Of a stretch of 37,175 nucleotides of DNA, positions 33,601-36,247 are shown one piece after another; positions within the stretch are counted from its first letter, which is position 1, and every line of letters starts with the position of its first letter. Origin of the DNA: an uncultured Ignavibacteriota bacterium (GTDB lineage: Bacteria; Bacteroidota; Ignavibacteria; Palsa-1295). The notes beneath the pieces were generated by a model. The model had not been told where the DNA came from, searched no databases, and saw nothing but the letters and a program-made list of their open reading frames with translations. The stretch is from contig CAIUMP010000010.1 of NCBI GenBank assembly GCA_903900335.1, positions 1 to 37,175 on the forward strand. Direction: 5' to 3'. The position numbers and the translations under genes were made by a program.

Positions 33601-33974
33601 AGAGCGCCCGCCATAAGGGAAGCCCATCCGGTGTCCAAATTCTTCATGTAAATGGAGGTAATCCAGCCATTCGGTTTCTGCTGGTCATTAATTGGCGTGG
33701 TACTCTGAATCCAATTAGTCCCATCTACTGTGTGCCATATCGTTGGTCCGTTGATATTTCCTTGTTTTGGATCTGGCCCTTGCGCAGCAATAAGTCCGTG
33801 CTGTTTGCTCCAGAAATATCCGCACGTTCCCATGGATAGCTGCTGCTGACCGAACTCATCCGTGTAGTTGGGCAAATGGAACACTGTTTTCCAGTGGGAA
33901 TTTAATTGACCATAGCTACTTCCGGTGCATGTAAGTAGCGTGACAAGAATGAACGCGAGGATCTTGCTCGTCAT
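30666..33974 (-). CDS. Large T9SS-exported protein with BNR-like repeats, ASH/HYDIN-like domains and a cohesin-like domain
   Basis: A 1102-residue secreted protein. The signal peptide covers 1-22 (LTCTGSSYGQ). Residues about 25-390 carry Ycf48/BNR-type blades (KTVDGGLSWVVV, KTVDGGKHWDGI, SFDTGGTWDWI, STDTGHTWLSV). About 400-820 holds repeated beta-sandwich units of the choice-of-anchor D/HYDIN type (SFLIRNHGCGSLKVDSI, STNISNTGCDTLRITNI, VRFHPSLGGDSHGSLRI). About 825-990 resembles a cohesin-like domain (VNIPIYVRTPS...SLDLRVWFNTDLITP). The T9SS sorting domain ends the protein (SIVPNPARDEIAVGVRG...SHLPKGSYYLRLSSG). ATG 33974 is preceded by AGGGAGG, and its first bases overlap the upstream stop codon (ATGA). 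Confidence 0.9.
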   Translation of the reverse strand: MTSKILAFILVTLLTCTGSSYGQLNSHWKTVFHLPNYTDEFGQQQLSMGTCGYFWSKQHGLIAAQGPDPKQGNINGPTIWHTVDGTNWIQSTTPINDQQKPNGWITSIYMKNLDTGWASLMAGALTNVLWKTVDGGLSWVVVPGIISGGYQKVTENPNAYWDTPTGMAEVAGQPETDSILLLMIGKTQYSEPWRDAFCSAWIGKVGLIYSTAPWATQSNGLPPEPPHFYKTVDGGKHWDGIYCNTFDYTGWGLWGCEKWNAFFIGRVGGPYVSFDTGGTWDWISAIKTSHVPDTLVYTMDVEGASDVVYMQTENNLSGSAFDPDPRKSTHINTGLYRSTDTGHTWLSVGGPSNLWETRFCVLGCHGATVIAFDASGGVWLTEDGGDGKLGNGFAHPLLSDTSLQSTTSVCSNIANRFRFHNEHCDAFELDSISFADSTLVRLGALTLDSIPALPKLYGSNDSGFVEYRWNPGAAFTKDTTVTNGIVIHYRSITTGQEYDTTVSLHLVATSGKASHTLSKYELSYDPTGTCSFTDTSFLIRNHGCGSLKVDSIIADGSDYSVLSFDSVLAVDGSGRVVVRFHPSLGGDSHGSLRIHTTQQGVSSWDTLPTLGTGIQGMGILNVFSTSLQAGSFSFCAGDTTLSTNISNTGCDTLRITNIKFVGDATLSYLSSANDTLLVPDSGRKTFTFYFAPRTAGAHSGTLTFHSANLHGNDGGHDTTITISGTGIPSTPALSVPRTALALPQLIAGCTTASDTIWLFDSLCADQKLTIDSTRVESAAPGTLTLPIIASSILDYQIGNHDSIGIIASFYPSSADTGTATSIIRVFFHGEDGVRHDTTVLVSASAVPPAKIQFHLGQGVAATALHSATSGLVNIPIYVRTPSPLSAITSADITSLDLRVWFNTDLITPVSLTVVGQRYDVDVQYGTRTPLQYQLDGAFLHIPLPQGFTMSSDSLVATLTCQTFVTDTVQTRIWLDPVSISAQANESACLGVSSDTSSAMFTLDPVCPDNMLSGFVGTHTFEIESIVPNPARDEIAVGVRGIGDGVSGIAVFDLLGDQVLTRSSSVTGSNGFTLDTSHLPKGSYYLRLSSGNAVATRQFVIRR

Positions 33975-36226
33975 GGTACCTCCCTGTTTGGAATAATCAA
34001 AAAAACGAATGCCGCTCGAATGAAGAAATCGAACGGCATTCGACGATATATTAATTTAACGAGCAACATTGTACGGTTTACAATGACGACCCCTTGCGGG
34101 AATTCGATTTGATAGTAGTACGTCCCGGCAGGAAGCTTGTCTCCAGTAAAGTAGAAGAAGTGCTTCCCGGCGTACGTTGCGTCCATGTTGTCCTTCAGAA
34201 CTTCGTGACCAGTTTGATCGACTATTCTGATGGAGGCCGTCCCAGTTTGAGAAGTCTCGAACGGAATGGTAGTCTTGAAACCTGTTGCCGAGCCAAAAGG
34301 ATTCGGGAAGTTCGGCTCGCCGTTGTTGGCAGGAGCGATTGTGGAACTACCGCCGCCAGCCGCTATCTTCGGCGCTGGGTATGTGTATGTAACGGACCCG
34401 TTGTCACCGATGGAGCTTGACCAATCCGAGGTGAAGGTGGTTGCGCCAATGTTGCAGTCGAAGCAGACCGTGATGTCCATTTCTCCGCAACAGCCTAGCG
34501 GGCTACCTGGCCCTTGGACGACAGTCATTGTGTGGGTTGTTGTATCGAAAGACCACATCCAACCAAGCGGTAAGCCGGTGGGACTGCTTGGCGAGCAGCC
34601 TGTCGGTACGGTAAAGGAGAAGCTGTTCTCACCAGACCCGCAATCTGCTGGGTCGTCCGCGTGCCACTTCCATTTCATACAGTTGACGCTAACCTCTTCG
34701 AGGGTGACGTAGTCGTAATTATGCCATCCATCGCTGCAGCACAGACCGCCGTCTCCAGGATTGATCGAAACGGTGTGGAGTTCTCTCGTTGGCCATTCTG
34801 GAAGAAACTCTCCCGTAACTCCGGACCATACTCCGAAGACATTCTTATATTCTCCCCCTGCAACATGGCAATCACAGGTCTGGAAACAAAAGTCCAACGT
34901 CCTGCACCCTGTTGTATCAGCCCCATTGATATCGAATTCGTCCGTGCAGCCGCTCGAACTCACGTGATCCCACCCTGCCGGCCAACTTGTCACTTCCCAG
35001 CAGCGCGGACTATTGCTAAGGGTATCACAGTGATTGATGAATATGCGCGTTAATGGGTCATTGTTACTACGGTGCATTGTAAAACAATAGGTCCAGATAC
35101 CCGTGCTCGGAGACTGCGTTACCAGCCCATACGTGAAGGGTGTTTGGTGGGCGACTTCACAGCACCCGGTTGGATTCGTGTAAAGCGGCGCAGCAGGAAC
35201 AGAGTTATTACAGACAATACTGTCATTACCATGCACGTCGGTGCCCAAGCTATCATTCCATGTATGTAGAGAGACAGTCTCAGTAGCACAGAGCCCACTT
35301 GTACACTCGTTTGAAATGAAGCAAAATTCTGCGACTCCACAATTAGGAATCCCAGCGGTATTCATTCCGCTAAACACTGCAGTGCTTTGATTCAAAAGTA
35401 GATTACTCCATCCAGCAGGCATACTCAGCAACTTCCAAGTATGCTTCCCGGTGCAATCAAAATCGAATTCTACATGATAGAGTCTGCCTGGGGTATTATG
35501 ATGAACGTCCAGACACAATATGTCACGATTATCGCGTGAGGTGCTATGTGTGAATGAGATTGAATCACAGTGTTCCCAGCAACTCCAAGCAGTACTGTCA
35601 GGGCATACATCGCTGAAGAGCCTGGCGTCGATCAACGAACTGGTCGTTGTGGTTCCATTCCCATGCGTTGTCTTAATATAAAATGGGAGATGGGTTCGCC
35701 CCATTCCACAGCACACGCAGAGTGTAAGCCATCCTTGTCCACCCGTCTCAATCTCGCCAGGAGGTGGTCCAATATTCCCTTTGAAGTTCCGATGTCCAGG
35801 CGTTTCCCCTGTAAAATCTTCATGCCAGTATCCGGTCTTGAAGTGGCTGAAAGGATCATTCAGAAAAGTAGTTCCATCATTCCATTGAGTGTCCATGGTG
35901 ACGACGCAGAACCACCCGGCCGAACTCTGACTGGAGTCAGGGTCAATTATCTGGAAGCTTGTGATTTGAGCGCAAGCATCAATTCGAAATGTCATGCAAT
36001 ATACCCCTTCGGCGTTTGTCTCCTGGCTCTCCAGCGTGAAGCCGTCGGAGCAACCCGCTTTGCTCGCTCTGGGAATCGCTAAGAGCGACAAAAGGGCCAG
36101 CATAACTGTTAGGAAATACGCGCGGGAGATCGCGCGAAGGCGAGGCGCGGAATGCGGCTCGTGGTTTGTCCGTCTGCTCGATAGGGCGGCGGAGAAGCCC
36201 GTTCGTTTTGAAGTTAATGGTATCAT
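33971..36226 (-). CDS. Cysteine-rich four-module T9SS cargo with a readthrough C-terminal extension
   Basis: A 751-residue protein from ATG 36226 (AGAAG five nt upstream; a TTG at 36247 or ATG at 36103 are alternatives). The signal segment FLTVMLALLSLLAIPRASKAG follows a long basic stretch. The mature part has about 36 cysteines in four related modules (about 59-208, 215-340, 355-495 and 496-592). Each has an early C-x-aromatic strand, a later W-P-A-G-W or LGW word in three of them, and a closing FCF..C or VCFDC. Residues about 640-724 are a T9SS sorting domain (PNFPNPFGSATG, LPAGTYYYQIEFPQG, RTMLLVK). The frame then continues 27 residues (LIYRRMPFDFFIRAAFVFL...) through an intrinsic terminator to a TGA overlapping the next ATG. 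I do not recognise the modules as a named domain. Confidence 0.85.
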   Translation of the reverse strand: MIPLTSKRTGFSAALSSRRTNHEPHSAPRLRAISRAYFLTVMLALLSLLAIPRASKAGCSDGFTLESQETNAEGVYCMTFRIDACAQITSFQIIDPDSSQSSAGWFCVVTMDTQWNDGTTFLNDPFSHFKTGYWHEDFTGETPGHRNFKGNIGPPPGEIETGGQGWLTLCVCCGMGRTHLPFYIKTTHGNGTTTTSSLIDARLFSDVCPDSTAWSCWEHCDSISFTHSTSRDNRDILCLDVHHNTPGRLYHVEFDFDCTGKHTWKLLSMPAGWSNLLLNQSTAVFSGMNTAGIPNCGVAEFCFISNECTSGLCATETVSLHTWNDSLGTDVHGNDSIVCNNSVPAAPLYTNPTGCCEVAHQTPFTYGLVTQSPSTGIWTYCFTMHRSNNDPLTRIFINHCDTLSNSPRCWEVTSWPAGWDHVSSSGCTDEFDINGADTTGCRTLDFCFQTCDCHVAGGEYKNVFGVWSGVTGEFLPEWPTRELHTVSINPGDGGLCCSDGWHNYDYVTLEEVSVNCMKWKWHADDPADCGSGENSFSFTVPTGCSPSSPTGLPLGWMWSFDTTTHTMTVVQGPGSPLGCCGEMDITVCFDCNIGATTFTSDWSSSIGDNGSVTYTYPAPKIAAGGGSSTIAPANNGEPNFPNPFGSATGFKTTIPFETSQTGTASIRIVDQTGHEVLKDNMDATYAGKHFFYFTGDKLPAGTYYYQIEFPQGVVIVNRTMLLVKLIYRRMPFDFFIRAAFVFLIIPNREVP
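33999..34041 (-). terminator. Canonical intrinsic terminator located inside the extended reading frame
   Basis: On the minus strand the arms GAATGCCGTTCGA and TCGAGCGGCATTC form a 13-bp stem with one G-U wobble and a 9-nt loop, then G and seven T. It lies just after the expected end of the sorting domain (codon at 34055-34057) and 24 nt before the start of the next gene. Confidence 0.9.
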
Positions 36227-36247
36227 CGTTTCTTCTAAATGTGACAA

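Follow-up and report, generated by a model that had tools for sequence, protein, structure and literature searches.

The window, as we call the whole analysed stretch of 37,175 nucleotides from an uncultured Ignavibacteriota bacterium, contains two tandem genes for T9SS cargo proteins, the upstream of which, P0001, lacks a stop codon at the end of its sorting domain and is open across a terminator-like hairpin as far as the start of the second gene, P0002. A stop and a hairpin at this place are conserved in relatives, and the geometry of the resulting tail is unremarkable. Most likely, an ordinary tandem of genes for secreted proteins has undergone a private mutation here or contains a base error, and the explanation that we favour, with a probability of about 0.72, is a lineage-specific loss of the P0001 stop in an ancestral hairpin-separated cargo tandem, the hairpin being older than the loss. 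The ancestral state would have been two T9SS cargo genes in tandem with the family's usual intercistronic hairpin, terminator-like and a few nt after the upstream stop, already present between them. This stop would have been lost by an A-to-T change or by a one-T insertion, and the next in-frame stop, which lies by chance 27 codons further on within the P0002 start, would have given P0001 a non-conserved tail. Translation over the hairpin would then weaken termination, as in Escherichia coli.

Two tandem cargo genes and their junction

P0001 is encoded on the minus strand at 33971-36247 and comprises 758 aa when counted from a TTG, with an in-frame ATG at 36226-36224 corresponding to residue 8. 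Its translation consists of a signal-peptide-like N-terminus, a passenger and a C-terminal T9SS-type sorting domain, a beta-sandwich of residues 640-731 (34055-34330, minus strand) that was delimited by an alignment with eight homologues and an AlphaFold2 model. This last folded part ends ...GVVIVNRTMLLVK with the motif MLLVK, whose terminal K codon is found at 34057-34055, and up to here the frame is open across 731 codons. As the sequence-only reading had stated and minus-strand translation confirms, the following codon is TTA (Leu, 34054-34052), one base away from TAA, and the frame then runs on, in total over the TTA and 26 further sense codons, to an ATGA shared with the next cargo gene. 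The tail LIYRRMPFDFFIRAAFVFLIIPNREVP of 27 codons thus occupies 33974-34054 on the minus strand, and its TGA (33973-33971) overlaps the ATG of P0002 by 4 bp (33971-33974, minus strand). A Shine-Dalgarno-like AGGGAGG is located 4 nt upstream of this ATG (33979-33985, minus strand). Within the tail lies the hairpin, with 14 pairs and a 9-nt loop (34006-34042, minus strand), the stem of which begins 9 nt past the TTA codon and is directly followed on its 3' side by a run of seven T (33999-34005, minus strand).

The downstream gene P0002 (30666-33974, minus strand) encodes 1102 aa with choice-of-anchor-D-like repeats and a type A sorting domain. In the profile search it scores above the curated cut-offs (39.8 bits for PF18962, 39.7 bits for TIGR04183) and by these scores clearly belongs to the T9SS type A cargo. 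The source genome is a 4.0-Mb draft of 62 contigs, in which relatives of P0002 with 56-74% identity are cut at the ends of contigs C31 and C33 and at the starts of contigs C8 and C56. It therefore seems to be this multi-copy family that makes the assembly break.

The missing stop codon in comparison with relatives

The contig with the single near-full-length orthologue of P0001 (G006, 42% identity) breaks off upstream of the stop and does not include the orthologous codon, and therefore the stop was compared using homologous sorting domains that are joined to other passengers. Eight such gene ends from tandem pairs were drawn from five genomes of the same genus or family, namely G001:C6 (two), G001:C18 (two), G002:C132, G003:C15, G005:C39 and G011:C323. 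All eight have TAA or TAG directly after [VI][KR], exactly at the position where P0001 has TTA. A P0002-type cargo start follows downstream in at least seven of them, and the downstream frame of the G011 copy is broken. The assertion that such proteins normally stop at the end of the domain likewise holds beyond these homologues: the stop lies at -3 to +7 residues relative to the end of the domain in 70/70 other sampled sorting-domain ORFs of the window's genome, in 30/30 of five relatives and at 79/79 loci from named genomes. By this sequence comparison the TTA is an outlier, and the missing stop is beyond chance. A second strain with the P0001 site was found neither among genome contigs, searched with P0001 alone, nor in IMG/VR, searched by domain alignment and by exact pattern. 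An 86-nt segment of the site retrieved only itself from its own genome and is therefore not a dispersed repeat.

Several relatives show variants of the tandem arrangement. On G001:C6 (L100) and G001:C18 (L101) three T9SS cargo genes each follow one another, with similar sorting domains on different passengers, and at every junction the stop is immediately followed by a hairpin and the next start lies no more than about 30 nt away. The upstream genes of G002 (L105:2082-2564, 160 aa) and G003 (L104:1626-2192, 188 aa) consist of a signal-like segment, a short linker and a sorting domain, an architecture that looks like the result of a passenger deletion, and the shortened ORF of G003 begins like a P0002-type protein. 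Furthermore, at about 2449-2620 of G003:C43 (L111) a remnant of a P0001-type domain, QNYPNPLDAASGFNTTIPFVTSA, is found directly 5' of, and in frame with, a P0002-type cargo gene.

How the stop may have been lost

TAA is converted to TTA by a single-base change. Equally simple is a one-base T insertion, AAATAATAT to AAATTAATAT, after which the former TAA is out of frame by one base. The proposal of a lost or mis-called stop is supported, as the homologues have TAA or TAG exactly here, but it had missed this insertion, which fits as well as the A-to-T change. One base is also all that is needed for a sequencing or assembly error, in which case MLLVK would be directly followed by TAA in the organism, and the consensus would carry a wrong or an extra base. 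In favour of this, all relatives have the stop, an extra T in AAATAATAT would also yield the string that is observed, the assembly consists of 62 draft contigs at whose ends copies of the P0002 family are interrupted, and the named relatives are MAGs. However, no frameshift is apparent in the remaining long ORFs of the window, which are open, and the site is not a long homopolymer. We consider such an error unlikely and infer that the mutation is real.

The stop loss might also be one step in the decay of P0001 into a pseudogene, which would be in line with the shortened upstream genes of G002 (160 aa) and G003 (188 aa) and with the short domain remnant ahead of the cargo gene in G003:C43. In the window, however, the passenger, the signal-peptide-like segment and the sorting domain of P0001 are all intact, and the tail need not inactivate the protein because P. 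gingivalis tolerates CTDs extended by His (PMC11285876). Decay is therefore quite improbable. Two further possibilities were considered for the open frame. Programmed stop-codon readthrough was rejected, as TTA is an ordinary Leu codon under table 11 rather than a stop that ribosomes could read through. A fusion of both proteins by a -1 frameshift at GTTAAATTAA is conceivable in principle, since the downstream frame is open for 27 codons 5' of its ATG, but the site carries no conserved signal.

For a stop loss in an ordinary tandem, the length of the tail is unremarkable. When the stop is skipped in silico, 30 of the 68 measurable sampled cargo genes of the genome gain at least 27 codons (about 44%), and three of the eight homologues stay open beyond the hairpin as far as the next start or into it: the first pair of G001:C6 gains 23 codons and ends over the next start, G011 gains 20 codons and ends just ahead of it, and G002 continues straight into the downstream frame. 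Therefore, an open tail is not special, and the 4-bp overlap needs merely the right frame because the next genes here often begin with ATGA.

The sorting domain of P0001 and its tail

The C-terminal domain of P0001 scores just below the curated cut-offs for sorting domains, with 23.4 bits for CHU_C (cut-off 27) and 22.1 bits for TIGR04183 (cut-off 23). The 92 residues preceding the tail align with 48-77% identity to the eight domains of the relatives. In the AlphaFold2 model of residues 640-758 the domain has six strands with a pLDDT of 88-97 in the core blocks, and the tail, modelled at low confidence (pLDDT about 58), is appended to a domain of normal fold. The best Foldseek matches of the domain model are largely Ig-like or FlgD-like beta-sandwiches, and T9SS CTD structures are absent among the top 50, which limits this support to the fold class. 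According to the model, P0001 has the Ig-like beta-sandwich that is expected of the C-terminal domain of a T9SS type A cargo. It differs in that the domain is not the C-terminus of the protein: 27 residues follow, which is the case in none of the 70 other cargo ORFs of the genome.

In the alignment with the eight homologues, none carries the 27-codon tail. Its codon usage lies between coding and out-of-frame values, so that it may be under selection, and the tail includes the hydrophobic stretch FFIRAAFVFLII. The tolerance of T9SS domains for changes at this end varies. The RgpB domain is blocked in function by a truncation of two residues, and PorU is blocked when its last six residues are replaced, but tolerates eight added His (PMC11285876). 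PorZ and PPAD likewise accept C-terminal His tags in P. gingivalis (PMC11285876). By analogy, 27 residues with a hydrophobic stretch are a harsher test of P0001 secretion than these His extensions, and we would expect the effect of the tail on secretion to be nearly neutral or mildly harmful. An evolved role for the tail is unsupported.

A closely placed hairpin between the cargo genes

The sequence-only reading had described a stem of 13 bp with seven T, and this is what is found, with 14 pairs if one G-U is counted besides the 13 Watson-Crick pairs. The hairpin has a dG of -24.7 kcal/mol compared with a mean of -10.3 for shuffled sequences (z -5.6), and none of 200 shuffles was as stable. 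With its stable GC-rich stem and the immediate T-tract it has the features of a Rho-independent terminator. A pattern-based terminator scanner gave no call, because its loop limit is 8 and the loop has 9 nt.

All eight relatives likewise have a stable hairpin 3' of the stop (z -4.1 to -9.0), whose stem starts 4-13 nt after the stop, compared with 9 nt after the TTA in the window. From the stem to the next cargo start there are 9-29 nt in the relatives and 31 nt in the window, as counted by eye. The stems have no evident sequence in common. The T-tracts are strong in the window and in G003 and weak in G001, G005 and G011, those of the relatives ranging from six T to almost none. Among control cargo genes, i.e. 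those with the best-scoring PF18962 domains, which belong to a different branch of sorting domains than P0001, a stem near the stop (score of at least 10, start within 15 nt of the stop) was found in 10 of 99 (9/70 in the own genome, 1/29 in relatives). The comparison with the eight relatives gives a Fisher p of about 1e-7, a value that overstates independence because the eight share descent. The closely placed intercistronic hairpin is a conserved feature of the whole family and a firmer result than the stop loss. Regarding the position of the stop relative to the hairpin, which would be conserved in a translation-controlled attenuator, the distance of 4-13 nt applies to all eight relatives, which share descent, and the window has no stop there. 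Just upstream of position 390 of G006:C343 (L103), another P0002-type gene is preceded by a strong hairpin of about 15 bp that ends 12 nt before the ATG, and the preceding possible stop lies farther off.

Translation across the hairpin

In E. coli, translating ribosomes repress terminators that they cover or closely approach (PMC4824070). The terminator tR2 is almost silent a few bp past a stop and at full strength beyond about 30 bp, and shifting the stop from 28 to 5 nt upstream lowers termination from about 90% to under 10% (PMC4824070). By this yardstick the hairpins of the relatives are already within the range in which ribosomes finishing the upstream gene would open them. Since ribosomes repress terminators that near to a stop in E. 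coli, translation-sensitive readthrough may be a trait of the family without the need of a lost stop, and the stop loss in the window would carry ribosomes over the stem and could do no more than open it further.

No sigma-70-like promoter is called on the minus strand from the hairpin to the ATG of P0002, a result that has to be read with the reservation that promoters of this bacterial group may differ, and there is little room for a promoter because the next start is so near to the stem. Therefore, transcription of P0002 probably comes from upstream, either passing a hairpin that is leaky or gated by ribosomes or starting at a promoter inside P0001.

The earlier suggestion that translation through the hairpin prevents termination and couples the two genes is physically plausible in view of the E. 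coli data (PMC4824070), but nothing shows that it has evolved or is needed here, as the relatives keep an intact stop 4-13 nt before the hairpin and their next genes start 9-29 nt after it. In its strict form, translation of the hairpin would block termination by design, P0002 would be made only during translation of P0001, and the overlap would add translational coupling. The effect of the stop shift on tR2 (PMC4824070), the hairpin within the frame, the ATGA overlap and the lack of a sigma-70-like call between the hairpin and the P0002 ATG agree with this. However, the arrangement is not conserved, as translation ends before the hairpin in 8/8 relatives, P0002 has its own AGGGAGG, the geometry of the tail is expected by chance, and no new mechanism is needed because the spacing in the relatives already permits repression by ribosomes. 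Evolved coupling at this site is thus very improbable.

A further and rather improbable reading is that tandem cargo genes in this Kapabacteria-like family are split by a translation-gated hairpin, in which the stop lies a few nt before the stem and the next cargo gene 9-31 nt after it, so that the ribosome finishing the upstream gene would set readthrough and thereby the ratio of the cargo proteins. In the window the stop would have moved past the hairpin and turned an adjustable gate into one that is largely open.

If the stop loss that we favour is real, the window offers a natural test of whether T9SS sorting domains tolerate a long hydrophobic C-terminal tail. It would be a test, too, of whether an intercistronic hairpin is opened by translation into it in bacteria other than E. 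coli. More rewarding to pursue is where the hairpin sits across the family: its distances of 4-13 nt from the preceding stop and 9-29 nt from the following gene suggest partial, translation-sensitive termination between genes of secreted proteins. Our literature search found precedents for the mechanism only, and none on T9SS operons of Kapabacteria or on such an arrangement of stop and hairpin.

Comparison with known systems

Like gene pairs coupled by ATGA, the stop of the P0001 tail overlaps the start of P0002 by 4 bp. In contrast to these, the overlap would exist only through the loss of the ancestral stop and is in use in no relative, and P0002 has an AGGGAGG of its own. The junction resembles the ribosome-repressed terminators tR2 and pyrBI of E. 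coli (PMC4824070) in that a GC-rich hairpin with seven T is near to or overlaps the end of the upstream gene. However, those were measured in E. coli, whereas the hairpin of the window is a predicted terminator and the T-tracts of its relatives vary. With T9SS type A cargo (PF18962 / TIGR04183), P0001 shares the signal-peptide-like start, the passenger and a C-terminal beta-sandwich whose last residues form a [VI][KR]-like motif, at which the homologues of its domain terminate exactly. It differs in scoring just under the cut-offs and in the 27 residues that extend beyond the terminal motif.
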